A stretch of DNA of 64,000 bases. It comes from Nymphaea colorata. Its lineage: Eukaryota > Streptophyta > Magnoliopsida > Nymphaeales > Nymphaeaceae. How positions within the stretch are numbered: position 1 is the first letter of the stretch; every line of letters starts with the position of its first letter. Location: contig NC_045145.1 in assembly GCF_008831285.2 (NCBI RefSeq), positions 14,524,040 to 14,588,039 on the forward strand, read 5' to 3'. Positions 9,375-64,000 of the stretch are shown here, in pieces. The notes beneath the pieces were generated by a model. It saw nothing but the letters and a program-made list of their open reading frames with translations. It was not told where the DNA came from and searched no databases. A program made the translations under genes and the position numbers.

Positions 9375-9620
9375 TTGCTCGGTTTTGCTCGCTCAAGCGA
9401 GCAACTCCCTCTCAGAGAGAGCGTTTGGTTCTATAAACCCTCGCTTCTCTGTTCAAGCGAGGGTTTTGCTCCCTCAAGCGAGCAACCATCGTTCAGAGGG
9501 ACCTTCGCTCGCAGAAGCGAGCAATCGATCTCTCGAGCCAGGTTGGGTTTCAGGAACCTCGCTCAGAGCGACGGAAAATCGTCACTCGAGTGATGGTTTC
9601 ACCTCCCTCACTTTGAGTGA
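9375..9620. repeat. cluster of short imperfect palindromes
   Basis: Just upstream of the GCP4-derived exon 1, short inverted repeats come one after another: GCTCGCTCAAGCGAGC, GCTCGCAGAAGCGAGC, TCACTCGAGTGA and CCTCACTTTGAGTGAGG, plus related half-sites. Together they form at least four small hairpin-capable elements in under 250 bp. The region would be promoter or 5' leader of the original gene. Confidence 0.7.
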
Positions 9621-9661
9621 GGGTTTCACCTTCAGATTCTAAAATGTTTCTGAAACTCTCC

Positions 9662-9763
9662 ATCAAGGGTTTCGTCAGAAGATCTTGTTTCTTTTGTTTT
9701 TTCAAATTCTGATCGAGGGTTTCATCCGAAGATCTTGTTTCTCTTGTTTTTTCAGATTCTTTT
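9662..9763. repeat. 51-bp tandem duplication, two copies
   Basis: A unit of about 51 bp containing GAAGATCTTGTTTC and TTGTTTTTTCA is repeated head to tail (about 9662-9712 and 9713-9763) with a few differences. It lies between the palindrome cluster and GCP4-derived exon 1. Confidence 0.8.
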
Positions 9764-10376
9764 GAGATGTCATTCTCTGCAAGCGGTTAAAACGTAGTTT
9801 CACACGCTCACGCCCTTTTTTCTCATTGATTCATTCCGTCAGAGAGGGGAGGGAAGAGGCGGGAGAAAGGAGGGCGGAAAAATGCTGCACGAGGTTCTCC
9901 TTGCTTCTGCTGGGCCACACAGGGGATTTCGTGATCAAGCAGAGGGATCAATCCGGCGAGCTCGTGTTCAAACTATCTCCCGATCTTACCTTCGTTCAGC
10001 CTTCCTGAAGGTAAACCCTAATTTTTGTTATTGTGCCTTCGGCTCCGATCTGATTGTTTGATTTGATATTCCCGATGATATTTTCTTAGTGCGAGATCAC
10101 GTTTGTCCGTTAAAGGTGGCTTATTTGGACCGCTCGAAGTTGGTTCATGTTGACAACATTTAAGGTTGATCCGTTTAATCAACCTTGTCCTACAAGCGCT
10201 TCGAGTCAATCACTGCTTCAATTTCAACCGCGATTTTAGAAAAACATGGATGAATGACAAACCACATTAGTTGTGCCCGTGCTATCAATGCTTTTTCTCT
10301 CGAACGTCCGTTTCTGAATTATTGTTACATTTATCATTGCAGGGATGTTATAGAAAGGCTTGTCCGGTTGGGGCTC

Positions 10377-10867
10377 CAAAATAAAGTAAAGAGGAAAAGA
10401 AAATTTCTGAGGCCAGGAAAACCCTCCGAACTACAGAACATTCCCTTGTTTGAGATGCCGCAACATCTTCACTAAAAGGGAATACGATTTCGTTGACAAA
10501 ATTCCCCATAGGTTGGCCTTTCTTAAATGACAAAACACAGTTCGCCGAATATCCTCTGGCTACTTCAAAAAAGACACTATCATTCCTCAAAAATGGCTCC
10601 AAAAGATAAGTATTTGCAGAAAATATTGGTTTCCTAAGATCATTGAAAGAACGTTTAGAAAGCTTGAAATCTTTTGGCACGCCCATCAGCCACATATTAA
10701 CAAAGCAGACAGACATGAAAAAGCACTTGTGAAGTTTTATTACTGATTAATTAGGAGTATTGGCAAAGATAAACATTTTGCCTTCTCTTTTTCATCAGAG
10801 GAAGAAAAAGGGGGGAAGGAACAACAAAATAAAGTAAAGAGGAAAAAGAAGAAAATTTCTGAGGCCA
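10377..10867. repeat. about 40-bp direct repeat flanking the inverted copy
   Basis: The sequence CAAAATAAAGTAAAGAGG, followed by AAAATTTCTGAGGCCA, occurs at about 10377-10415 and again at about 10825-10867, the second with four extra bases. The two copies bracket the left arm of the inverted duplication, as an over-long target duplication or a template-switch scar would. Confidence 0.8.
10414..10795 (-). repeat. left arm of a 380-bp inverted duplication
   Basis: On the minus strand this segment is nearly the same as plus-strand 11196-11574, including MSVCFVNMWLMGVPKDFKLS, SANCVLSFKKG and NEIVFPFSED. It is therefore an inverted copy of the first coding stretch of the insertion, not an independent gene. 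About 400 bases separate the arms. A transcript through the region could fold into a hairpin with a stem of about 380 bp. Confidence 0.92.
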
Positions 10868-11195
10868 CAGCAATGGGGCATTCTGGCAGCTCGGTGTCTA
10901 GGAGACGATCCCTCTCGGAGGACAAAACACAAATGCGATTCGTGTAAGTCCTGCTGTTTTAGTTGAAGCAGTTAAATGCTGACATCAGCCTTGAATGCAA
11001 GCCGAGCAACGGAAGAACGGTACTTTCAGGATACTGATACCACTCCCCCTTCTTTTTTAATTGTCTCACACTCCCTGTTGAATGGAGATGAAGATGGAAG
11101 GGGATGAAGGAGATCCAAGCTTGGCATTGGTTCATGTGAAGGAAGATGCTTTATCAGTCTTATCATCCATTTGACGTGAGAAGAAGCTCCAACTA

Positions 11196-11574
11196 ATGAA
11201 AAAGGGAAGGCAAAATGCTTATCTTTGCCAATACTCCCAATTAGTCAGTAATAAAGCTTCGCAAGTGTTTTTTCTTGTCTGTCTGCTTTGTTAATATGTG
11301 GCTGATGGGCGTGCCAAAAGATTTCAAGCTTTCTAAACGTTCTTTCAATGATCTTAGGAAACGCATATTTTCTGCAAATACTTATTTGGAACCATTTTTT
11401 AGAAATGATAGTGTCTTTTTTGAAGTAGCCAGAGGATATTCGGCGAACTGTGTTTTGTCATTTAAGAAAGGCCAACCTATGGGAAATTTTGTCAATGAAA
11501 TCGTATTCCCTTTTAGTGAAGATGTAGCGGCATCTCAAACAAGGGAATGTTCTGTAGTTCGGAGGGTTTTCCTG
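11196..11574 (+). repeat. right arm (source copy) of the inverted duplication
   Basis: The matching arm lies within the longer coding-like stretch that continues to 11709, so this copy is probably the original and the 10414-10795 copy the derived one. The arms differ by scattered substitutions and small indels and are roughly 95% alike by eye. Confidence 0.9.
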
Positions 11575-12134
11575 CCTATGCTTGATGATCTGAGCAACAC
11601 TTTTCTCTGCTTTCTTGCTGATCTTGTTACAAGGAAGTCGGTAAAATTTGAGAAAACCCGTCCTCGTTTGGAAAGTGTTATCAAGAAATATCTTCTTATG
11701 ATTTTTTGAAAACCCTATCTCGTTCGAGGATGCTTTAAGACTACAAACCCAGATTATGGAAGCGTTTAGGGATCCAAAGAAAATCATATCCGACTCGTCA
11801 GCAAGTCCTCTACATCTTGTGTTCGTGATGTGGCTGTGATACTACATAGACTGGAAGACTTGTCTCTTCATGCTCTTGATGCAATGAGAAGAAAGCTTTG
11901 CATGTATCCTTGTTCTCTTTATACAGAACCTTGTACAAATCGAACTAAGGAGCAGTTGATTTGGATGTTGAGAAGGAAAATTGGTAAACTTTTGGGAGAT
12001 AGGCTGCCAGATAATCTGGCAAGTGCTCTAAGAGTTGCAAGCTTGTCAATGAAGTTGATGAAAGGGCATTTTGATAGTAGATTGTCAGAGTTTTTTGAGG
12101 TTCCTCATGAAATTGAAGCTTTGCAGAATGAAAT

Positions 12135-12543
12135 TGTAACACCCCAGAAGTTTAGTCCCGTATCGAAGATTGTGAGGAATCTTCAAGGGCTTATAATGGG
12201 AGGCTATTAATGAGATGATTGTCCTGGTTCCTAGCCTTTTTAGGATTGGAACCGAAATTGCTAGGGGGCGGGTTGGGATCCGTCGAACCAGGGGCCCGAA
12301 CCCGGGAGTGGGTCGGGTTGTTATAGTGGTATCAGAGCAGTTTCAACACTCGGACCTGGGGTCCCACACGCGCGGACGCGTGCCCTTTAAGGGGGGTGGA
12401 TTGTAACACCATAATGGGAGGCTATTAATGAGATGATTGTCCTGGTTCCTAGCCTTTTTAGGATTGGAACCGAAATTGCTAGGGGGCGGGTTGGGATCCG
12501 TCGAGCCAGGGGCCCGAACTCGGGAGTGGGTCGGGTTGTTATA
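12135..12543 (+). mobile_element. TRIM/SMART-type miniature LTR retrotransposon
   Basis: Two direct repeats, 12135-12325 and 12402-12543, begin TGTAACACC and end TTGTTATA. The internal part is only about 76 bp. It starts one base after the first repeat with TGGTATCAGAGCAG, the initiator-methionine tRNA primer site usual in plant LTR elements, and ends in a purine tract (AAGGGGGGTGGA) before the second repeat. A 5-bp duplication, GAAAT, flanks it at 12130-12134 and 12544-12548. It has no coding capacity, as is normal for this class, and would need enzymes from other elements. One repeat is shorter than the other. Their shared part is almost identical, so insertion looks fairly recent on the plant scale. 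It sits inside the coding-like insertion, whose sequence continues on both sides. Confidence 0.93.
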
Positions 12544-13980
12544 GAAATCCTTAAAGCTATTTGGTTTGTCTCTAATCTTCCACTTGATGAAGGAACTTGA
12601 TGCCAACAGTGATACACATTTTGGCAGGACTAAAATAAAGAACCTCCTACTCGAGTGCCTTTTCCAATGCAATGAATTGGAGATTCCAAAGTCAATTCTG
12701 AAGGCTATTTCCACTATTAATAGTTACTGGAAAGGGACAAATACTAGAGAAATGATTGAAGATGAATTGATATGTATGCTTAATGTGGGCAGTTGCCTGA
12801 AGCAGCTTGTGTTGGATCTATCTGAACACCCAAACATTGATAAAGAATTTTGGGGTGCATACAAGGATGAATCAGAAATTGATGGTGATAGCAGTAATGA
12901 TGATGATGATGGTGATGATGATCATATTGATGACAAGGAAAATCACTGTTCCAACTATCAAAAGGTAGACATATTGGTTGGTAATGTATCTTTTGAAGCT
13001 ACTCACATGGCAAAACAGGAAGATGTTTCTGCGGCTATGAGAAAAAGCAGTGTTACTTCTATGTTACCTCTTCTGCCTAGAAATGATGGAAACCGTTTAT
13101 GTAAAGAAGGAGAAAATTTTTTAAGGGTGATATCTGACAAGTCTTTACCTGAGGAAGATTTGCATGTTTTACAGGAGCGCTGTCACTTCATGCCAATGGA
13201 TGAACCTTGTTTGCCCAAAACAACCTGAATACTTGTTCCCAACTCTCTTTGAGTTAGTAAAACCAAGTATAACAGGGCTTTATGACAGAAAGCTCACTGA
13301 GTTTGTCGCAAAGTCACGCAACCCAAACGTGGCATGGATCACCAACGTGAATGTTCCAAATCAGGCTCCAGCATCCTTGAAGGTAAAAAAATAAAATGCC
13401 GAGTTTTATGAATAATTTATAATTTTGCATATTGGATGATTGGAGCTTATGAGTTGATTGAATTAGTTATTTGTTTTGAATCCTGAGAACTATGACGCAA
13501 GTGATTTGAGCAAGTTGTGGACTTTGATGCATTTCTTTTGAGCAGGTGTGCATGATTGAGGTTTACTTATTGTTTTCTATTACTGTTTTGGGTCCAACTT
13601 TCCGTCCGCTCCAAATAGATTGCAATGGCAGCACGATTAGCAGCATCCTTATTGCAGCTTTCTTTTGCAGATTATGACTGAACCAATAGAACAGATGTTT
13701 ATATAGGCAAGGAAGACGTGAAAGCTGCAGAAAATGAAGGCAATTCATGATGGTAATTTTTTTGAGTAGGTGTTTCCTAGTTCTATGCCTTAAAAGGACA
13801 AATTATGTACATGATTGGGGAATACGCTGTTTATACTAAAGCAACTATTTTTTCTCTTAAATCTTGCAACTTGAGGATGACACCTCTATTAACTTATTTG
13901 ATATGCCATATGTATGGGTATGTAATGCCTGTCACATTCCTCTATCTGTATTCTGTAGTGCTTGTCAATCTTGTTATATG

Positions 13981-14016
13981 TACACTGGCAATTGTGGGAC
14001 ACTGGCAATTGTGGGA
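13981..14016. repeat. 17-bp tandem duplication before the last GCP4 exon
   Basis: ACACTGGCAATTGTGGG is present twice in succession, within what would be the intron just upstream of the acceptor at 14033-14034 of the GCP4-derived exon. It does not affect the coding part. Confidence 0.85.
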
Positions 14017-14121
14017 CTTCTATTCTGTTGCCAGTGCTTTCTTGAGGAGAGCCGCCGACTAATGTGCCTTCCACCCCATTATTTAACTGCCGAAGCTGAC
14101 CTAATGGTTCCACTTCATTTG

Positions 14122-15600
14122 GTAGGTCTTATCATGCTCTTTTAGGCTCTTCACTTCTGCCAGCACAAAGCTTTGTATATAAATTTTCTGCTTATGTATC
14201 TTGAAAATTTTGTGTTTGAGGAAATTCACTTTAAGTTGTCGAGGCAGCATAGCAAAGTTGTTAAGTAATTTTAGGCTAGATAAGTTACATAAAACCTATC
14301 AAATTTAGTAGTCACTCTGCAAAGAAGTAGCTCTTAGAGTAGGCTGCATTTTTAGCAATTTGCTTGATTTTTTTAATTAAGAAATTTCTTGTTTTCGCAT
14401 TTTCTAATAAGGAACGTAAACTACCTATATGTTAGGAGTCGGGCCCAGATCAGTTTGAATCCGGACTCTATCTTAATAAGGTTTGTTTGTTCTTGGAGCC
14501 TAGTGTTTAGTGTTTTCTACTTCTGCTGTATCGGGTCCTTGGTGACCCTTGTTACTGTCCTGTAGAATCGAACCAGTGAGGTGGGATTAAAACCCAAATA
14601 CTAGAGAGAGAGAGAGACCATGTAGAGGCCAAAACCCTTTTCTTTCTTCCCCTTATCTCTGGGATTCTGGGTTTTTCCGGAGTGAACTTGTAGTTACTCC
14701 AGTTAATTTGAGATATAATACATATTTTTTGCAAATTAATGAAATAACACCCATAAAAATAAAACTCATGACCGGGGCTTCACCTGTCCATCAATTCAAC
14801 CAACAAACTACACCCTTGAGGCACTCCGGTGAGTAATTGAGGAAAATATTGTGTCGAAAAAAGCATTTGTTACTTCTGGGTGTTAAAAAACAATAAAAGG
14901 ATGTGAATGACGGGTTTTGGACCTCCCATGTAAAAAGTTTATGATTTTCAATTTAAAAAATTATAAAATTCATATTTCTTGAGTTTATAACAGATCGCAG
15001 CTTGCTTAAATGGTGTTAAACCCAAAATTTATTACTCGAGCTCCTAAGGCAAAGGCAATGCAACTTCATTCCAACTGCAACTTCTTTGGGCAAGACTTCT
15101 ATTGAGATATCAAAAGAATTTTTTTGAGAACGTTACTTTTTTGTGAGAGTAGGTTGTTTGTTATGACCTTCCACTTGTGATGGTGCAAGACCTTAACTAT
15201 TAGGTGACACATGATATTGGTAGTTGAGATATTGTATTCTCGAAATGGAAGGTCATGACACTCAAGCTGTCCTTATTTTTTGTCATCTAAGCAAAAAGTA
15301 GGCTTAAAAAGTGATGTCTTTGTTAAGCACATAAACCAGATTTCAAAAACTATACCCTAGTTTTTACATATATCCAAACAAAACCTGAAATGTGAATTTC
15401 TTTCTTAAAATAATTGGTAACAAAAAGCAGAACACACAAGGCTACCATGTTCACCATCGAATGCTCAAACTGCTTCCATAAACTATTTGCTGGATTGATT
15501 AATAAAAGGAGGGAGCGTTATCTCGCAGCATCTTTACATCGCAACTATTGTTGGATTTGAGTGACAGAGAAAGAGAGGGAAAAATCGCATCAATTAGTTC
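14122..15600. other. intergenic, possible old repeat debris
   Basis: No gene recognised and no further GCP4 exons. The stretch 14430-14720 starts TGTTAGGAGTC and ends ATATAATACA, with the feel of a solo LTR, but I could not find matching flanking duplications. Confidence 0.4.
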
Positions 15601-16316: not shown

Positions 16317-17689
16317 TTGCTTCACAAATCGGATAAATGGAAGCCGGGCAAGCCAATGCGAATGAGGCTGCGAATTCATGGATTGGAAAACTGTAACCGC
16401 TAAAATGGCCCTGTTTGTGAGCCTCTCTCTCTCTCTCTCTCTATTTCGCTCTCGGCTTCCGTGGATTATCTTGGTCATGTTGTGTTTAATCGATCTATAC
16501 TACTCTTTCCTGTCTTGCCGAAAATTCGGGAAGGCAATTATCTGCACTTGTTTTTACGTGCCGGAAACATTAAATTATATGGATGCTAGGGGATAGCTAC
16601 TAATGAGAATTGTCGAGTGAAATTTATTTCTTAGAATCAACAGCAATAACATAGATTATAGTGAGATTTCTAGGGTTTTAGATGATTGGCCATATTTATG
16701 TTTTGTAATATGATATGCACTTAAAATTGTCTTTAGAATATGATGGACGTACAAGTAGCTGCGCACCCTGTCTAATTAAATTAAGCTAAATTGCCATGTT
16801 TTTTATCTTCTCTAAATATGAGTTTCTTTTGATGCATTTGTTCTGAACATGTCAGATCTTCATCCACATGCTTCTTCTCCGTATGTGCATGCTATGTCAG
16901 CTTGCTGATGGCTACACCCAACTAACTAAATTCGAGGTCGCATGAATGTGAAAACGGCAATGGGAGTGCGAGCGACTTTTATGTGCTATGACGGTTTGAA
17001 TATTAAGGCAAAAACATAGCTCAACATACAGAACTGTTAATATGATTGTCTGTTTTGCATCATTATCATTTATGGCTCTGTTAGCTTATACCGAATTGGC
17101 AAGATGTCCCATTGGAATGGCACAACGTCAGTATCTTGCACTAATTCCCGTTGGACGGTAGAGTTTAGGAAGTCAAAGTTGCATCTCTTTTTGTCTTTCT
17201 GTAAAATCATTACAGAACTCGACTGGTTCCAGTTATTTTGTCTGATTATTTTGTTCACTTTCATGTTAACTGATTCAAAGTAATTCTTGAGGTGCCATTT
17301 ATTAACAAAATTTTATTGTTTTCTTTTAGTGACATATGTAAGAACTCCTACAATGACGAACGCAAAAATGAATCATACTCGATTTTATGAAATATATGAC
17401 GAATATGTTCCTAACCGTGGTCAAATTAACCATGATGAATTAATTATCTAAACGCATAACCATTGGATGAATTGGGCAATGACAATTAAGAAGCAACAGA
17501 TTAATCAACTGCTTCTAAGCGACTCCACAAAAATGGTATGTGAGTGACTGTATAGTCTTTCAGTTTGTTGATTTGAAGAAAGCAAAGGTTTGTGCGCCTT
17601 TATTTGTTTGAAAAGAAAGACGACCGTTGGCTCCACCGGCAAAGAAATTCCCCGCCACTTTTTCCTTTCCGCCTTCTGCATATGCCTGG

Positions 17690-17693
<4 letters not shown>
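16317..17693. other. intergenic and upstream region of the LysM gene
   Basis: A short CT run lies at about 16423-16442. The rest is AT-rich with no recognised gene. The last few hundred bases should contain the promoter of the LysM gene, but I see no clear TATA box at a convincing distance. Confidence 0.4.

Positions 17694-17748
<55 letters not shown>
17694..17748. repeat. (CT)n microsatellite in the LysM gene leader
   Basis: About 27 CT units run up to 26 bases before the start codon of the LysM gene. CT-rich leaders are common in plant genes, and a pure run this long is likely to vary in length between individuals. Confidence 0.95.
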
Positions 17749-17751
<3 letters not shown>

Positions 17752-17773
17752 CACTCAAGCTGTTCCACCCACC

Positions 17774-20456
17774 ATGGCAAAACTAAAGCTCCTTCATTGT
17801 CGCCTGATGCTTCTTCTGTCCTTCTTCTTCATCCACACGCTAGCGAAGTCCACCATAGAGCCGTGCAGCGTTTCGGACTCCTGCACGGCCATGGTGGGCT
17901 ACACCCTCCCCACCGACCTTAAGGTATCGGAGGTGGCTACCCTCTTCCAGGTCGATCCCATTTCCCTCCTCTCCGCCAACGCCTACGATCCTTCCTCCTC
18001 CCCACCAAGTCGTATCCTTCCCGCCGGCCTGTTCCTCAAGGTCCCCCTTCTCTGCTCCTGCGTCGATGGCATCCGCAGCGTCGCCTCCGTCGTCTACCAC
18101 GCCCGCGCTTCCGACACCCTCGAGTCCATCGCCACCTCAGTCTACGGCTCCCTCGTTTCTGCAGACCAGATCCGCGACGCCAACGGCATCGCCGACCCTG
18201 AGCTCATTCTTCTCGGCCAGCCCCTCCGCATCCCCCTTCCTTGCTCCTGCTTCAACCGCTCCGACAACGGCCTCCCGGCCATCTACCTCTCCTACGTCGT
18301 TCGGCCGGCCGATACGCTCATGGAGATTGCCACCACATACAGCACGACGCTATCGGATCTCATGGCCGTCAATGCCTTGGGTGGCCCCGTACTCAAGCCG
18401 GGGGACATTCTCGCCATCCCCTTGGGTGGTCCGTTCTCTCAATCATTAATTTCTGTTCTGTTATCGTCTGAAGGGAGGAGAATTTCGGGGCACTTTCTTT
18501 GATTATTGCTTTTAATAATTCGTTTTGGGGCGTTTCTGAATTATTTGTAGCTTGTATTCCTCGATTCTCGAGGTTCGCTTCGGACGCTGGATTGATGGTT
18601 GCAAACGGGAGTTACGCTATTACTGCTGACCACTGTGTTCAATGCAGTTGCGGACCTGTTAACATGAAGTAACAACCCTTTTCCTCGTACTCTCTGGTTG
18701 CTTGATGTTCAAGTTACAAATGTGCCAGATTCTACTGGTCGTGTTTTTTTTCAAGCCTATGTTTTCCTTAACCCCACTTGATCTTTCTGAGCCACTAATC
18801 TACATTTTTGTGCTGTTCTCGGGGACATCGGCGACCAAGAAAAGAATTTTAAGCCCTTTCCTGCTTTTCCTTTTGCTTCAGTAATCTTCTGTTATTGATT
18901 AAACTAGATGGGTACTGTCTTACTAGGAAAAGAAAGCTTCTTTTCTGCCTCTGCTGACCAAAGTAGATGCCATACTTTTGACGCAAAAGGCTCTCTTCTT
19001 CCCTTCCCCTGTTTTGCACTCCGTTTCAGGACCCATCTGATTTTTCCCACTTATCTAGAAAATTGGATAATCGGATATAGGATATTAAGGATAGATGTTG
19101 TCTATTCCATGCTCTGACATCTGGCTTTGACATGATTTGGCAAATTCAAGTTCAGAACAGGTTCTTGTTTTGTTATCTCAGCCCTTTCACCTGCGCCTTC
19201 TGAACTGAGCGTTGGCTTCTTTTTCCTGATCTGCGCAGTCTCTTCTGTGCGCCGGCCTCACTGGGCGCTTCATGTGAAAGTATGCACTGCAGGAGAAGCA
19301 ACCTCACAGTTGGAAGTGTTACCTCTCGGCTAACCAGCGCAGGCTGCAACGTCACCTCCTGTACTTACGGTGGTTTTGTTAACGGCTCCGTTCTAACTAC
19401 GTGAGTCGTCTTCCCATCCTTCTGCTCATGACCAATTCGTTTACATAATGAATTGGCCATTAATTTTTTGTTTTCCTGTGATTTTTCCTTTTTGTATAGC
19501 TTGTCAACATCTCTCCAGCCACGGTGCCCAGGTAAAAAAGGTTTCTTTACTGAGTTTGTGACCTCTTGCAGCTTTCTTTAGCTTGAATAGAGCTGCCAAA
19601 GCGACCTTGTTAACTAAAGGGGGTGTTTATAGTCTTGGATTTGAAATCTGAGGGAATTTGAGATCATTTGGAATCCTATATCCATGAACTAAGGTTGTGT
19701 TTGTATCACTATGGATCTGAGATCTGCGGTGAGGATTTCAATCCATATATTTAAGATTAGACCGCCCTCTTATCTAACCTTAAATCCTTGGTTTTTAGTA
19801 TGTAGCATGAACTTAAAATTCATGCATTCATGCTTAAACTGAAGACCTCCCAAAAACAACCTTTTTATGCAGCCTTGGATCTAAAATCCAAGGCTATCAA
19901 ACGCAACCTAAAGGTCAGACCTTCCTTCCGTCCAACCTCATTTTGAGGTTTTGGCCATAAAGCGAGGATCTCAAGTTTTCTTTTTCATATAGTGATAAAA
20001 TCCCACTATAAATCCAGTGTTTGTTTACACTGGATCCCACATGGAAGGGATCTTAGTTCAGCCTAGTATTTATGATTTAAGTCTATCAAACACACCCAAA
20101 ATGTTATGTGAGCTCGCCTTTGAATATGAAACTTAGTGTTGATCTAGACAAGAATTTGCAATGTTGATCTGGACAAGAATTTGTTCGTAGGCAATCGGTC
20201 GTCCCTGTCTCTTTTGCCCCTGCCTTCAGTATTACCTGTATCTGCACCAGCACCATCCCCCCCACCATCTCAAGCAGGCGAATTTGCACCATTGGCAGCA
20301 CCTTCATCATCGTCTTCAACAACGGAATCACTTCCGGTGGTGGTTCCGGCAGTCAGCCCATCAGGAACCAGGTCTGATACTTCGTCAGTGACTCACTCAG
20401 CAGGTCCCTCTTCAGTGGTTCTGATTCTACATATGCTGACATGTTTTTTCACCTAG
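17774..20456 (+). CDS. LysM domain GPI-anchored protein (LYM1/LYM3-like)
   Basis: Five exons, 17774-18425, 18551-18668, 19239-19400, 19500-19531 and 20191-20456, all with GT/AG junctions, give 409 residues. The protein has a signal peptide (about 1-24) and paired cysteines C31/C37, C94/C96 and C157/C159 of the CxC type. LysM modules lie at about 108-154 and 174-217. A conserved cysteine region follows (GSYAITADHCVQCSC, PASLGASCESMHC, AGCNVTSC), then a Pro/Ser/Thr-rich stretch. It ends in a short hydrophobic tail after SAGPSS, typical of a GPI signal. LYM/CEBiP-type proteins sit on the outer plasma membrane and bind chitin or peptidoglycan fragments with LysM receptor kinases in immunity; ligand and partner here are inferred. 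The ATG is in good context (CACCATGGC). Intron 4 (659 bp) holds MITEs and a tandem duplication at the last acceptor. Confidence 0.93.
19621..20096. mobile_element. possible outer Tourist-like MITE in intron 4 of the LysM gene
   Basis: The left end GGGGTGTTTATAGTC and the right end, which reads GGGTGTGTTTGATAGAC on the other strand, are imperfect inverted repeats bracketing a smaller element. No clean 3-bp TTA/TAA duplication is seen (AAA lies outside both ends), so the boundaries are tentative. Confidence 0.45.
19693..19908. mobile_element. Tourist-like (PIF/Harbinger) MITE
   Basis: This 216-bp element has ends GGTTGTGTTTG and CAAACGCAACC (inverted repeats) and is flanked by TAA at 19690-19692 and 19909-19911, the 3-bp target expected for PIF/Harbinger elements. 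It has no coding capacity. The interior is clearly related to the copy at 33466-33689. Confidence 0.8.
20137..20190. repeat. 25-bp tandem duplication at the last LysM-gene acceptor
   Basis: TGTTGATCTRGACAAGAATTTG occurs at 20137 and 20162, one base different, directly before the TTCGTAG acceptor of exon 5. Each copy also carries a CAAG acceptor-like site, while the pyrimidine tract is weak. Confidence 0.8.
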
Positions 20457-42937: not shown

Positions 42938-45292
42938 TCAAGAAAAATCCCCACGTTTCATTGATGCCTTCTGATACCGCGCTTTCTCTATTTCTTTTTC
43001 TAGAGAATCAAGAATTGTGTCTGTGACATGATTAGGAGAGCATCCTGCGTCCAACATCATCTTGAGAAACTTATAGGCTTCCTTCACTCGCCCTTGCTTG
43101 CTGTGGATCTCGATGAGTGTATTAAATGTGACAATATCTGGGTTGATGCCACTTACAGTCATTTGTTTGAATAAGTTGTTAGCTTCATCCAGGCGACCTG
43201 CTTTACCTAGTGCATTGATCAAAGTGTTGTACATGACAACGTCAAGATGCCCGCCCTTCTCCAGCAAATGCTCAAGAACAGCGCAAGCAAGATCTGCTTT
43301 ACCCATCTTCCCCAATCCCTGGATGATCACACTGTAGGTTGCAATATCAGCAGGACATAATTGCTCCCCCATCTCAACCAAAACTCCCCATGCTATGCTG
43401 AAATATCCCTTCTTGACAAAAGAGCTCATCAAAGAATTGTAAGTGTAGCTCACTGGTTCACGGCCCATTTCAGTAAAGATTTCAAACAACTTACAGGCTA
43501 AACTCAACTTCCCCTTCGCCAGAAAGATGGACATGTATGTATTGACCATGTCAATGTCAAAGGTTTCTACTCCCTTATCCCTAACTCGCCGTCCTCTAAG
43601 TGCAGAAAACTCTTGAGAAAGGCCATCATGTTCGCCTTCCCCTGCAAGACGTTCCATATAGGAAGACGACGTCCATCCGTTGGATCCAACCATCGCATTA
43701 TGCAGCTCACCTTCAGACATGCTCCCGAAGCTAGTTCCACAATTTCCGTCGGAAGAAGATATTTTCATCAGATTCAAAATCTCGTCTGCATCGTCAACTG
43801 TAGGAAACATAAGCTTGAAATCCTTACTTCTATCCTGTGGTGATCGCATAACGGCTTCTATTTCCGAGCTCCATCGGAGAACATTCATCACCAGGCTACC
43901 ATTCCGAACGTACTGCATTAGCCCCTCAGCCCGATCCCAGAGACCATATTTGTGAAGCCCGATTACAATAGATGTCAGCGTGACTAAGTCAACCACAAAC
44001 CCTCTAGCTTCCATTTCTTCCACCAACTGAAGGGAGCTTTCAATCCTCCCATTCCGAATAAGATACAAGATCACTATGCTATAAGTAATGGCATCAACGT
44101 ACCGCCCCTTCTTCTTCAAATCACAGAAAAGCGAATAGGCAGCCACTGCTCTCCCGTTCTTGAACAACCCATCGATCAAAATGTTATAAGTCCAACAGGT
44201 AGGCCTCAGCCCATCTTGCATCATCTTTTCTAAAAATGTGCAGGCGTCTTCTAATCTCTTCGCCTTGAACAACCCGTCAATAAGAGAATTATAAATTACA
44301 ACACTAGGACTACAGTTTCTCGTCTGCATTTCGTCAAACAGTTTGGTTGCAACTTCTAATCTATAAGCTTTGCAACAACCCTGGATAACGATCCGATAGC
44401 TAAACACATCTGGCTCGTGCCCAGAGTCCTTCAATTCATCGAACAAAACCAACGCCTCATCCAATCTACCAACGAAGCAAAGAACACGAATCAAAGAATT
44501 ATAGGTACACAAATCTGGCTGCCGCCCTTCTTCCTTCAACCTCTTAAATAGCTTCATTGAGACGCCCAATTCCCCCCAGCGCCCGAACGCATGAATGCAG
44601 ATATTGTAACCCCAGTTATCGAGCTTAAAACCCCTACTCATCAGCTCATCGAAAACTCGTCTGAACTCGTCCTTCATCTTCGCGTTCCGTAGGGCGACAA
44701 GGAGCTCGTTACAGGCCAGGTTATCAGGAATCGCGACGCCGGATGCCAGGACGTTGTCAAAAATCGACAGCGCCACCGCGATCTGATTCTTTCTGGCCAG
44801 TGCGACCAGCACGGAGCCATAGACCCCAGGGTCGAGGCCAACCCCGGAGCGCTCCATGTCGTCCAGGGCCTCGAGGGCACGATCGAACTTTCCGAAGCGC
44901 ACGGAGGCACCGATAAGGAGCCTGAAGGTTTGGGGGTCGAGCGCGAGGCCGCGCCCGCGCATGGAGCGGATGATCAATGGCAGCTCGTCGTCGAAAAGGG
45001 CCGCAGTAACAGGCGCGGAGGTGGGGGAGCGACAAATGGTGCGAACAGCGAGGGAGAAAGCCTCCGGAGAGGGATCGTAGTCCGGGCGGGTAAGAGCCCA
45101 TCGGAAGAAATCGAGCTTTCTACGAGGCTGGAGGGAGCGGCGGAGGAGGACGCGGCGGACGAGGTCGTCGGAGAGAGGGAAGGTCAACTTGCAGAGGTCG
45201 GCGGGGCCGCCGCGGGCTAGGGTCTTGATGATGGAGGCAACGAGGAGGAGGGTTCCGGCGGAAGTAGGTAGAGCTCCGCCGGATGGCATCAA
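42938..45292 (-). CDS. P-class pentatricopeptide repeat protein (At4g01570-like)
   Basis: One uninterrupted frame of 784 residues, intronless as most plant PPR genes are. From about residue 115 on it is a chain of 35-residue PPR helical pairs, for example CTYNSLIRVLCFVGRLDEA, VIYNSLIDGLFKAKRLEDA, WTYNILIDGLFKNGRAVAA, ATYSVIIQGLGKMGKADLA, VMYNTLINALGKAGRLDEA and VTFNTLIEIHSKQGRVKEA. A non-repeat linker rich in Ser/Gly/Asp (about 490-590) divides the array into a longer front and a shorter back block. There is no E, DYW or SMR domain, so it is P-class, which usually binds organelle RNA for processing or stability. Target and organelle are unknown. The overall layout, including the linker, reminds me of Arabidopsis At4g01570. 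It starts MMPSG, and the N-terminus may be an organelle-targeting peptide. Confidence 0.94.
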   Translation of the reverse strand: MMPSGGALPTSAGTLLLVASIIKTLARGGPADLCKLTFPLSDDLVRRVLLRRSLQPRRKLDFFRWALTRPDYDPSPEAFSLAVRTICRSPTSAPVTAALFDDELPLIIRSMRGRGLALDPQTFRLLIGASVRFGKFDRALEALDDMERSGVGLDPGVYGSVLVALARKNQIAVALSIFDNVLASGVAIPDNLACNELLVALRNAKMKDEFRRVFDELMSRGFKLDNWGYNICIHAFGRWGELGVSMKLFKRLKEEGRQPDLCTYNSLIRVLCFVGRLDEALVLFDELKDSGHEPDVFSYRIVIQGCCKAYRLEVATKLFDEMQTRNCSPSVVIYNSLIDGLFKAKRLEDACTFLEKMMQDGLRPTCWTYNILIDGLFKNGRAVAAYSLFCDLKKKGRYVDAITYSIVILYLIRNGRIESSLQLVEEMEARGFVVDLVTLTSIVIGLHKYGLWDRAEGLMQYVRNGSLVMNVLRWSSEIEAVMRSPQDRSKDFKLMFPTVDDADEILNLMKISSSDGNCGTSFGSMSEGELHNAMVGSNGWTSSSYMERLAGEGEHDGLSQEFSALRGRRVRDKGVETFDIDMVNTYMSIFLAKGKLSLACKLFEIFTEMGREPVSYTYNSLMSSFVKKGYFSIAWGVLVEMGEQLCPADIATYSVIIQGLGKMGKADLACAVLEHLLEKGGHLDVVMYNTLINALGKAGRLDEANNLFKQMTVSGINPDIVTFNTLIEIHSKQGRVKEAYKFLKMMLDAGCSPNHVTDTILDSLEKEIEKARYQKASMKRGDFS

Positions 45293-47841
45293 CGGGAGGG
45301 AGGAATGGAGGAACCGGAGGCTTCACAGAAAGCGCCTCCTGTCGACTCCAAGCTTAATACGCGTAGGGGTTGGAGGGGTTTAAGGTTTTGTGAATTTAAG
45401 AAAATAAGCAAGTAATCCCACAATCATCTTTAAGTTAAGGACCTGTTCTAGTCTACTGCCATCTTTTATATCTTTGTGAATTTTTCCTCACTTTCTCCTT
45501 CAACGTCTGAAACTTTTTCACTTTCTGCTGCACCTCGTTTGGCTTGACGCTTAGGTGGTTCGAGAGTGATGGCAAATGTGAATTCGAAGAAAAGATACTT
45601 TTGAAAATGGGGAAGTGGAAGAAGGGCATGAAACGGGTCGGATATGATCTGAGTCATGAACGGCCCGGTGTATGATCATCAAACATCTTCGGTCTGTTTA
45701 GAGATCCAGATCTTAGGCGTTTTGTCTCTTGGAAATAACGATACATTCGAGATATTATGATAAAGATCGTAGAAATTATATTGGATCGGACCATACTTGC
45801 CAGTTGCTAGCCTCATTGTGGAGATAGAACTAATATGTGTGATCATTTGCATTTAAGATACTTCATCTTATCAACGTATTGACACAGAAACAACTTATTT
45901 TTTTATTATAACAAAAAAAAAATGTACATTTAAACAGATTCAGACCCAGTGGTACGCAATATATAAATAGATTGCTGTTCTTTTAAAATAAATAATAAAT
46001 GTATCAAGGTGTCTCCATGGCACATACGCAGTTTATTTGTGCATGAAACAAAGAAAATTCGGTATTGTAAGCGGGCCTTGACCACGAGGCTTTGTCTTTT
46101 TCTTTAAAAAAAAAAACCAAAAATGTTTAAACATGACACTCTTAAATATAACCATCAAATCAGATCAGTCTGCCACCCAAATTGCTTAATTCGAGCCGCT
46201 CCAGACCAATCCTGGTAACACCCAGTCAAACCTGGGAGTGGGAATGCCGGTAGTTGGAAAATACTATAGTGAAGACCCTGAATCAAATCCCAGCATTGCC
46301 ACTTTGCACGTTAACGGCCTTCACATTGACATCTCGGCAATTTTCTCTCCAAAAGCAGCACATTAAGAAGCTTGCTTCTTAAATTGTTGGTTCCCAATTA
46401 CTAACGGGTGGCTGGACGCCATTCTTCAAAAACCCAGATTTGTGAAAAAAAAAAGGGTTTTGCAAAGACCAACTGGTTTGCTTCTTAAATTGTTGGTTCC
46501 TAATCACTAGAACTAAAGGGAGGATGTAAGATCGAAGTAATTGCATCCACAAGTCAACGAGCTCAGTCTACCACTCACATCGACAAGTCAACTAAGAGCT
46601 CAGTCTTATCACCAACTTAAGATTCTTTTCAGATGAAGTCAAGAGTTAAATTTACGATGTTCACTGGTGCAACATAGTTTGGATGAAGGGAAAACAGGGT
46701 AGATAACTTTTCTTTGTTATGTAGAACGATTGCCATGTCCACGGTTCCTGAGTATGGTGGAGAAGACTTTATGTTGGCATTTCATGAGTCAAGATCTTAA
46801 ACCAACTCAATCCACCACGTCCTCATTCAATGTCCTCGCGCTAACTCACCAAATTTTCGTCGGCTCACAAGCAGGTTGAGAGATTTACAGGTGTTAAGGT
46901 TGAAGCTATTTAAAACTTTGGTCTTGAAAACTTCGCAAAGCAATGATATATATAAGATGATTGTTGCCGTCTGTGGAAGTAGGAGGAATAAAAAATGGGC
47001 AAAACGAAATTACTGGCTGAAACTTACCTTGATTACCTGCGGAGTGGAATTTGCAGCAAAATCCATTTCAAGGGTGATTAATTGGTGTTCATTCCCTTTT
47101 TATTATTTATTCGTTTTGCAACTTTTGGCCTTTCTCGTCTTCTATAGTTTTGGATTCAAAATTTTGCCTTGGTCAGATTGGCTGAAGAAGTTTCTACTCC
47201 TCCAGTGAAATTTTACTTGCTGTTCTTCAATATGGTCGAGTCACCTCGTCTTTTTGTAAGTTGTAACCAGGAAGGCAGCCCTGGCCCCTCTTCCCTTCCC
47301 GTTAGGCTCTTGACTCTAATTCAAACTAAACTTTTACTGCAGAGGGAGGGAGGGAGGTGGGGAGAATTAAGTATGGCTTTTGAACACGACAAGGACTCGA
47401 ATAATGATGGCCACCTTGCTTTTAGGTGAACAAAGAGGGGAAAGAGCGGAAAAGTTGGCTCGACAATCCTTTGAACTTCCTGACCCACTTTCATTTTTGG
47501 CTCTTTTCTCCCTCTATCCTATTCAACACGTTCTACAAATAGTTAGTAATCGTCAATTCTGCTTGGTCATTTTTTCCCGTTTTGTTCTATTTTTCGTAAT
47601 TGTTGATTGTGTTCGAAGATTCCATTTTACTTTCTTTTCTCTCGCTTTGACATATTTCAAGAGTTTATGGTTTCATTTGTGGGCATTCTCTTGTGGTTGT
47701 TCGTTCTTCTTCTTCTCGTGACGTTGTGTGTCTATTCTAACGCGTTTAATTTGGAATCTCTGTTCAGGAGGCGTTGTATTTTGGTGCAATAATTAGTGGG
47801 CAGGCTTCCTGCGTTGTGAGAAGCACTTCCATAGGATCGTC
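45293..47841. other. intergenic, with GATA gene leader at the right end
   Basis: AT-rich with poly-A/T runs and no recognised gene. Near 46373-46401 and 46478-46506 the words GCTTCTTAAATTGTTGGTTCC are repeated 105 bp apart. The last 75 bases, after a TCTGTTCAG acceptor-like site, are likely part of the GATA gene leader, which suggests a leader intron. Confidence 0.45.
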
Positions 47842-62028: not shown

Positions 62029-63599
62029 TCCTACATACAAATTAAAGCACACGGAAATCTCATAATCTATTACGGACACAACTGTAAACCCTAACGATAA
62101 AGAAAAAGAGAGGGGACTTCACCTCTCACCCAGGCAATGGGATAACCCTCTCTCTCTCACACTTAAGTACAGAAAGAGAGAACGGGACTGAAAGAAGTAA
62201 AAAGTTTTTTTTTTTCCCTGAAATTTGACTTTAAGATGTGATAACATTATTGTTTTAACAGGAATACTGGGAAATTAATCATGTCTTTGCAACACCAGAA
62301 GCCCGCGGCCCTAAGAATTTCAAAATCATGCATTAAAAGGGTCTACATCTTCATCAACTCTCATAAAATCACAGTGTTCATCATAAAAGATGGATGGACC
62401 CAGAGTTGATTCCCAAAAGGACCACAAATTGTTATCATGGTTTAATTGCGCTATTTGTTTCTTAGAAAAAAGGTAGACATAAGGAAAAGACACATGTATG
62501 GTCACTTTCTATAATATTCAAGACTATCGGAATCTGTTCAGTAGCAATTCCACAATTGAAGAATCCATTCAGCAATACCACATTAAGTACCCACTAAGCA
62601 TTTCAAAATCAATCGCTTGACACGGTCTATAGTTTAAGGTCTCAATAAATCACATTTTTAATCATACAAGTATCGAACAAGAGCACCACATATTGCTAAC
62701 GTGGTTGTCGACTTTTTTACTAAAGATACGAGCATGGTCATTTTCTATATATAACCGATTAGATTCAAGCTTATCCAAGTTTCTTAGCATATTCAATAAA
62801 ATTTCATGCCGACTTATTTTTAGTGCTAAAAATCCAAAATGGGAGCAAGATTCTCAATAGAAATGTTCACAATAATTGCATGAGCTGGAAAAGAAAAAAA
62901 GGAAAGGAAAAAATGTGACACATGGTAGCTAGGCATTGCATGCAGCTTTAATGGGGGGGGGACTTTGGCAATCTGAATATTTGGGCAACACCAATCCACA
63001 ATAACTCAACTGGTAAAACCTTTTAAATGTAAAAGGCGTTTGTGACAGTTGAAAAGCAAGCTTGTTCTTATCCAACAGAGGAGAGAGAGACGAATTGGGC
63101 ATTCAGTTCTTTGTACGATTGCTGCCTTGCAGTTCACAAATAAATTATTTAATATTTGTGGGTTTTGTGTGCTATAGGACTAGAAGGGCTCACCATTAAT
63201 GGAAGTACAGTCATTAAATAAGCTGGAAATACAGTGAAAACAATAAAGAAATCCACATTCTTTCTGTGATTTCTGCGGTTGATGCATCGTCGGTCCCCTT
63301 TAAAGAACTGTTGTTTTTGTACTTAAGGAAGATTTACACAAAGAAAAAAGAAAGATGGGGGCTGGGACCGACGCTGAGGAGTACTGTACTATTTACCACC
63401 GTCTTTTTGAATTGTTTCTATATGCAAAGGCTCTGCTCCTTGCCGCTCCATCATATCCAGACAACCTTCCTCTCTCTTTCACTGCCATTTTTCGATATTG
63501 CTTCCTCTATGTTTTTACTTGATTCTAAAGTCTCTTCTCCATCCTACACCAGTATCTCTCTCTCTCTCGCCCACAACCGAGCTTTTTCTGTCTTTCTTC

Positions 63600-63607
63600 T
63601 ATATATT
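63600..63607 (+). promoter_or_regulatory. possible TATA box of the 6-phosphogluconolactonase gene
   Basis: CTATATATT lies about 100 bases before the start codon. It would give a leader of about 70 bases containing a CT run at 63659-63671. Position is reasonable, but AT-rich words are common here. Confidence 0.35.
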
Positions 63608-63700
63608 CCTTCCCTCGTTCTCCTGCTGCAGCACCAGAACCAGACATCCCTCCACTTCTCTCTCTCTCTCTCATACAGACAATTTATGCGCAGAGAAACA

Positions 63701-64000
63701 ATGGGAGAGGTAAGGGTGTTCGAGAACACGGAAGAGCTCTCCACCAACCTCGCAGACCACGTGGCCCAACTCTCCGAGGCTGCCGTCAAGGAGAGGGGAG
63801 CCTTCTCTCTTGCTCTCTCTGGAGGGGACGTACCCAAGTTCTTGAGGTTCCTTTCTCTCTCTCTATCTCTTTTGTTAGCTTCCATCTTCTCTTTTCGCCA
63901 TCAAATGAGAAAACCCGGTCATTTTTACGTCTCCGACTTTCATTCTTTCTTCTCTGCTGTCTCCTCGAATTAAGCAGGAAGCTCTCAGGAGGGCCTTATC
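63701..64000 (+). CDS. 6-phosphogluconolactonase, 5' part (continues past the window)
   Basis: Exon 1 (63701-63846) encodes MGEVRVFENTEELSTNLAD, then VKERGAFSLALSGGDVPKF. Exon 2 starts at 63978 after a TTAAGCAG acceptor and continues in phase with RKLSGGPY to the edge. LALSGG is the conserved phosphate/sugar-binding motif at the start of the NagB-like fold of these enzymes. They hydrolyse 6-phosphogluconolactone to 6-phosphogluconate, the second step of the oxidative pentose-phosphate pathway. No transit peptide precedes the conserved start, so a cytosolic form is likely. An in-frame ATG at 63686 would add five residues. The intron is 131 bp. Only about 56 residues are visible, so family rather than member is assigned. 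Confidence 0.87.

Follow-up and report, generated by a model that had tools for sequence, protein, structure and literature searches.

On contig C8 of the Nymphaea colorata genome (407.8 Mb in 783 contigs), exon 2 of a decayed copy of GCP4, the gene for the microtubule-building gamma-tubulin complex component 4, is interrupted by 2,899 bp of foreign DNA. What is this block, and how did it come to lie inside a dead gene? The window that we analyzed spans 64,000 bp, C8:14524040-14588039, and all positions given without a contig name refer to it. We consider it very probable that a retrocopy inserted into the GCP4 relic, and that a retroelement resembling a terminal-repeat retrotransposon in miniature (TRIM) inserted afterwards.

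The intact GCP4 was located on the minus strand of C10 through GCP_N and GCP_C family matches across the genome, and many simple-repeat rows were removed before its comparison with the window was evaluated. The relic aligns to it in four colinear blocks with 77-90% DNA identity, arranged as follows.

9842-10010, forward strand: 5' leader (about 40 bp) and exon 1 of the GCP4 relic, with the ATG at 9882
10011-10342, forward strand: intron 1 of the relic (51 differences in 302 aligned sites against the intact gene)
10343-10375, forward strand: left part of exon 2, terminating in the target duplication GGGCT (10371-10375)
10376-13274, forward strand: inserted block of 2,899 bp, a fold-back spliced retrocopy enclosing the TRIM-like element
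13275-13384, forward strand: right part of exon 2, beginning with GGGCT (13275-13279); homology to intact GCP4 continues until 13404
13405-13789, no strand assigned: 385 bp for which no origin was found, in the place of about 5.56 kb of intact GCP4
13790-14359, forward strand: later GCP4 exon (14035-14121, CFLEESRRLMCLPPHYLTAEADLMVPLHL) with flanking introns; homology stops at 14359

That 10376-13274 was inserted, with duplication of 5 bp of target, is proven most strongly by the empty site in the intact C10 gene. Window 10139-10375 aligns to 15148-15399 of the intact locus and window 13275-13404 to 15395-15523, so that the two flank alignments overlap by exactly five bases. These are GGGCT, present in a single copy there and at both borders of the block here, and the block is therefore an insertion. 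The flanks are preserved to the base and the target lost none. For comparison, a direct repeat of at least 5 bp is found at two random window positions with a chance of 0.0062 (200,000 draws).

Exon 2 without the block reads uninterrupted as RDVIERLVRLGLYDRKLTEFVAKSRNPNVAWITNV..., and this join can be scored. We used a GCP4-like plant query whose five top matches in PDB are GCP4 chains (best E 2.1e-94); as a control, 20 shuffled queries gave 164 hits with a best E of 0.053. In the unjoined window, exon 1 (E 2e-5) and the later exon (E 2.8e-7) both beat this value, and the two parts of exon 2, taken singly, score no better than shuffled queries (left E 0.37, right E 0.28). Fused at GGGCT, they reach E 2.6e-7, and each of six joins displaced by 1 to 3 bases scores worse. 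In Pfam, GCP_N matches the joined peptide of exons 1 and 2 (E 2.7e-5; 24.3 bits, below the curated cut-off of 29.4) and matches neither the right piece nor the left piece minus its first eight residues. GCP4 chains also top the list, weakly, in PDB searches with relic peptides (E 0.2 and E 0.0087); the later exon alone has no match there.

The reading frame of the relic is disabled by a one-base insertion near 9905, by a stop codon at 10006-10008, both in exon 1, and by the missing exons. Homology to C10 begins at 9842, and 9842-10044 is 86.8% identical to the intact locus. The roughly 5.56 kb replaced by 13405-13789 run from the remainder of exon 2 through the intron preceding the QCFLEESR exon, and nothing convincing in the GCP4 locus matches the 385 bp. 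Introns are retained (107 of 760 aligned intron sites differ from intact GCP4, and 41 of 352 exon sites), and the relic is therefore a DNA-level copy. With blastn at E 1e-8, no other shared gene was seen between the window, extended by 10 kb in both directions, and a 120-kb segment of C10 surrounding intact GCP4: of seven rows, four are GCP4 and three are pieces of the TRIM. Weak tblastx rows between C10 and the window were numerous and were treated as noise. Just upstream of the relic, 9381-9760 contains a 50-bp tandem repeat and CTCGCTC/AAGCGAG repeats that are degenerate and in part palindromic. Elsewhere, the GCP-like matches on two small contigs, C483 and C630 (27-29 kb), contain several in-frame stops, which sets them apart from the chromosome-scale copies; they are possibly foreign sequence or decayed copies.

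These results bear out much of an initial annotation, made from the letters of the window, which had read the locus as a GCP4 relic without most of its exons whose exon 2 is split by an insertion of about 2.9 kb and regains its frame when this is removed. The limits that it gave, 9882 and 14121, coincide with the ATG and with the end of the exon encoding CFLEESRRLM. It had proposed a comparison with the intact GCP4 locus of the same genome, to which both flanks do align with GGGCT as their overlap, and had named a true intron of an intact gene as the alternative; intact exon 2 has none there. It had also called the block unknown coding-like DNA. Foreign it is, but its kind, a spliced mRNA copy with a fold-back front, had been missed. 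The parts of the block are these.

10377-10415, forward strand: X', a second sense copy of part of a 5' exon (repeats 10825-10867, with one gap of 4 nt)
10414-10798, reverse strand: left arm, spliced and antisense, which copies the 5' part of a gene that we call Y (partner 11193-11574)
10799-11010, forward strand: loop, or X, comprising the 5' exons X1 (10812-10925) and X2 (10926-11010) of the parent mRNA
11011-13274, forward strand: exons e1 to e6 of gene Y, spliced, matching C6:8830679-8850829 on the minus strand
12130-12134 and 12544-12548, forward strand: GAAAT target duplication (5 bp) of the TRIM-like element
12135-12543, forward strand: TRIM-like element of 409 bp, with a 5' long terminal repeat (LTR) at 12135-12325 and a 3' LTR at 12402-12543

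In the 90 kb of C6 that were read, e1 to e6 lie in the same order, separated by five introns that measure between about 0.16 and 10.7 kb and are all absent from the window. In the C6 gene AG precedes every exon, and GT follows e1 to e5 at the joints. Outside the window, the end of the block (12549-13274) strongly matches a single genomic site, C6:8830679-8831407 (87%), and a further 33 bp match C13. The two X exons match C9:1539385-1539498 and C9:1538855-1538928 on the minus strand, and a 456-bp GT..AG intron that separates them on C9 is missing from the block, which brings the missing parental introns to six. Judged by sequence, the block is a spliced mRNA copy of eight exons, two 5' exons matching C9 and six matching C6. 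Relative to the C6 gene, Y in the block has four frameshifting indels and ends within coding sequence.

Why should one mRNA match two contigs? On C9, a 423-bp stretch starts about 250 bp past X2; among the best candidates scored, it matches the genome at two places, its own position on C9 and a site about 3.5 kb ahead of e1 on C6. Because the two loci share this intron DNA, the X and Y exons seem to be parts of one gene rather than a chimaera, and the X2/e1 joint coincides with the splice acceptor of e1. The C9 and C6 loci look like remnants of two copies of this gene, with 5' exons kept on C9 and coding exons on C6. Sought in the 47 kb of C6 that precede e1, X1 and X2 score similarly to five shuffles each.

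One exon suggests which splice form was copied. The 91-bp e3 (C6:8848383-8848473) breaks the frame, and both arms of the retrocopy contain it; with e3 left out, the C6 gene has an open frame of more than 500 codons that extends through all of the sequence read. A frame-breaking splice form of Y would thus have been copied, leaving an alternative-splice fossil. A poly-A tail is absent, as the copy stops within coding sequence. This would mainly weaken a route by long interspersed nuclear elements (LINEs), because retrocopies made by LTR retrotransposons often hold partial mRNA. As for what Y encodes, neither its pieces (best E 0.16) nor the exon-assembled C6 protein without e3 (631 residues) has a useful match in Pfam, PDB matches do not rise above chance (best E 0.17 and 0.6), and a viral_contigs scan gave four pattern matches, none confirmed. 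A single-sequence fold of a 227-residue piece of Y (mean predicted local distance difference test score 44) was set aside.

The left arm covers 385 bp, from the end of e2 through e3, e4 and e5 to the start of e6, with the introns likewise missing, and it differs from its partner at 17 of 382 aligned sites. In a three-way comparison of these sites with C6, 335 are identical, 30 carry changes common to both arms, 7 are private to the left arm and 8 to the right, and 2 differ in all three. As this divergence is similar in size to that of X from C9 (7 of 188), both arms appear to have come with the insertion. The antisense run from 11574 to 11193, followed by sense sequence from 10799 onward, is what we infer to be a cDNA end extended on a cDNA template. 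Predicted as a single strand, 10400-11590 folds at -748.6 kcal/mol, and the longest perfect duplex is 87 bp. An apparent clustering of the arm differences (p 0.004 with the cut placed by eye) was dropped, since 143 of 2,000 permutations equalled it in a change-point test.

The TRIM-like element is flanked by GAAAT on both sides, and its removal restores ALQNEILKAIW, matching the C6 gene. Its LTRs start with TG and end with TA, measure 191 and 142 bp (the 3' LTR being 49 bp shorter) and differ at 2 of 134 sites in their longest aligned stretch (98.5% identity). A primer site, TGGTATCAGAGC, begins at 12327, one base past the 5' LTR, a purine-rich tract lies ahead of the 3' LTR, and no coding sequence of its own was recognised in the element. 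Two short LTRs, the primer site TGGTATCAGAGC and the lack of a coding sequence of its own are shared with TRIM elements such as Cassandra, as described in PMC7215508, but the LTRs here differ in their TG start and TA end, and the boxes A and C given for Cassandra are absent. Cassandra was ruled out as its identity because these boxes are missing. Related LTR pieces are found at C10:21710407-21711423 (80-88%) and on C6 (74-76%); those on C10 lie about 0.8 kb apart, close to intact GCP4.

With these parts in hand, the layers can be ordered by divergence. Between X and C9, 7 of 188 sites are different, and between Y and C6, 147 of 1,827; the intron stretches of C9 and C6 diverge by 14%. The sequences suggest that the GCP4 duplication and the split of the Y paralogues (about 0.14 at non-coding sites) came before the insertion (about 0.04), and this before the TRIM-like element (2 of 134 between its LTRs). 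The insertion is younger than the GCP4 duplication because the relic introns differ at 107 of 760 sites and the 5' exons of the block from C9 at far fewer; arm and LTR divergence, taken alone, do not differ significantly (p 0.12). The layered history claimed in the initial annotation thus holds in that the insertion postdates the duplication and later events did take place within the block, although it had not recognised these as the arrival of a retroelement. As X is nearer to C9 than Y is to C6, the parent was probably the C9 copy rather than that on C6.

In the history that we propose, a truncated DNA-level duplicate of GCP4 would have decayed on C8. A spliced mRNA of Y containing the two 5' exons and e3, probably from the C9 paralogue, would have been reverse-transcribed, and the reverse transcriptase would have switched template, joining an antisense 5' copy ahead of the sense copy. 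This cDNA, without poly-A and incomplete in its coding sequence, would then have entered GCP4 exon 2 at a staggered cut, with a 5-bp duplication, and the TRIM-like element would later have inserted into the Y coding sequence. Entry may have been by an LTR-type integrase or by capture at a break.

Several observations weigh against parts of this history. As regards an integrase, the block termini, CCAAAATAAAG and GTATAACA, have no matching repeats, and neither an LTR nor a terminal inverted repeat is found in the outer 50 bases at each end (395 of 500 shuffles reached the score). The Y coding exons of the presumed C9 parent are absent from both genome searches, X1 has a weaker match on C1 (82%), and X2 as aligned on C9 does not end at GT, the nearest lying 5 bases further, an offset that a small deletion could explain. 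At the inner joints, microhomology judged by eye is about 2 bp at most. Among coding changes private to one arm, 6 of 8 are synonymous (4 of 4 in the left arm), against an expected share of 0.22-0.28 (chance 0.002-0.008), and those common to both arms appear unconstrained (8 of 25 synonymous). Few as the changes are, this hints at different functional templates for the two arms and not at one self-folding molecule. An inverted duplication after the insertion may also have made the arms.

This last possibility belongs to the first of two explanations that contest solely how the fold-back and the insertion arose. A plain sense retrocopy would have come first, and a later break in its 5' part would have received as a patch an inverted copy of DNA lying further downstream in the retrocopy, with the 39/43-bp repeat X'/X left behind. 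These do form a short direct repeat bracketing the inverted copy, a pattern that Vaughn and Bennetzen (2014) reportedly linked to patch-type break repair accompanied by tandem duplication. We nevertheless find such a patch rather unlikely: the arms differ from each other no less than X does from C9 and so look as old as the insertion, and the exclusively synonymous coding changes of the left arm are not favoured by a dead template. Possible, if somewhat short of an even chance, is that fragments of cDNA were end-joined at a double-strand break as filler DNA, the 5-bp duplication being the fill-in of staggered ends with no integrase involved. Plant break repair does capture filler (PMC4423477; PMC3445842), and a block without transposon ends, made of several pieces in both orientations, fits that route. 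With the fillers described in these sources, the block has in common the foreign gene pieces at a repaired break and the short flanking repeat; it differs in that its pieces are cDNA, amount to about 2.5 kb without the TRIM-like element, and cost the target no base. Both flanks are indeed intact to the base, and the fillers at transposon excision sites given in PMC4423477 average only 13 bp (range 1 to 123 bp), far below the size of the block.

Two other readings deny the retrocopy insertion altogether, and we rejected both. That one insert holds pieces matching two loci would suit a genomic gene fragment moved by a DNA transposon of the Pack-MULE or Helitron type, but spliced exons contradict this, six introns of the matching loci being missing, as do the 5-bp duplication and the lack of terminal inverted repeats; we judge it very improbable. 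Still less credible is that a working GCP4 would splice the block out as a true intron: a few GT/GC..AG pairs close to the junctions would leave the frame open (e.g. 10367/13267), yet intact exon 2 is intron-free at that place, and the relic has the exon 1 frameshift and stop and lacks most of its exons.

How does the retrocopy compare with known systems? In PMC5408686, plant retrocopies are partly ascribed to LTR retrotransposons acting through template switching, with several switches possible in theory and often with only part of the mRNA copied. Like the processed retrocopies described there, the block has intron-free spliced exons, a target duplication, an incomplete copy and frameshifts; unlike them, it has neither poly-A nor an LTR trace, and its own 5' part recurs in it as a spliced antisense copy. 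Among the papers listed by literature searches on template-switch fold-back retrocopies and on retrocopies of lost paralogues, none describes such a case, as judged by titles and the starts of abstracts. Hairpin pseudogenes are known from other organisms. As the processes are known ones in combination, the value of the locus is that of a clear, unusually readable case rather than a new system: every layer, from the gene duplicate through the fold-back retrocopy with its proven empty site to the young TRIM-like element, carries its own dating mark. The insert may also preserve a paralogue otherwise lost from the genome.

The block is probably a fossil with no function today. Homology to intact GCP4 begins just 40 bp ahead of the start codon and hence includes no recognised GCP4 promoter. 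Inverted duplications are thought to found plant microRNA genes (PMC3237417), and the block resembles those described there in its inverted partial gene copies, 385-bp arms and predicted hairpin; it differs in being made from cDNA and in lying within another, dead gene with no recognised GCP4 promoter. An insertion of this kind can bring both strands of a gene together, raw material for hairpin-RNA genes, and the predicted hairpin, if transcribed, could yield small RNAs. Exact 21-mer matches to the C6 cDNA number 17 of 365 in the left arm and 32 of 362 in the right. It is a long shot, but a single reverse-transcription event may have combined two mRNAs, from different alleles or copies, of a paralogue whose coding exons have since been lost from C9, in which case the insert would be the sole record of that gene and small RNAs from the 385-bp hairpin, if transcribed, could act on the C6 gene.

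Rfam at its gathering threshold gives no match in the window. The neighbours of the locus recognised by Pfam are ordinary plant genes: a SAUR-type auxin protein at 2226-2765, a LYK4/5-type LysM protein at 17612-18502, a PPR protein at 42938-45322 and, at 63218-63973, the start of a 6-phosphogluconolactonase-like gene.

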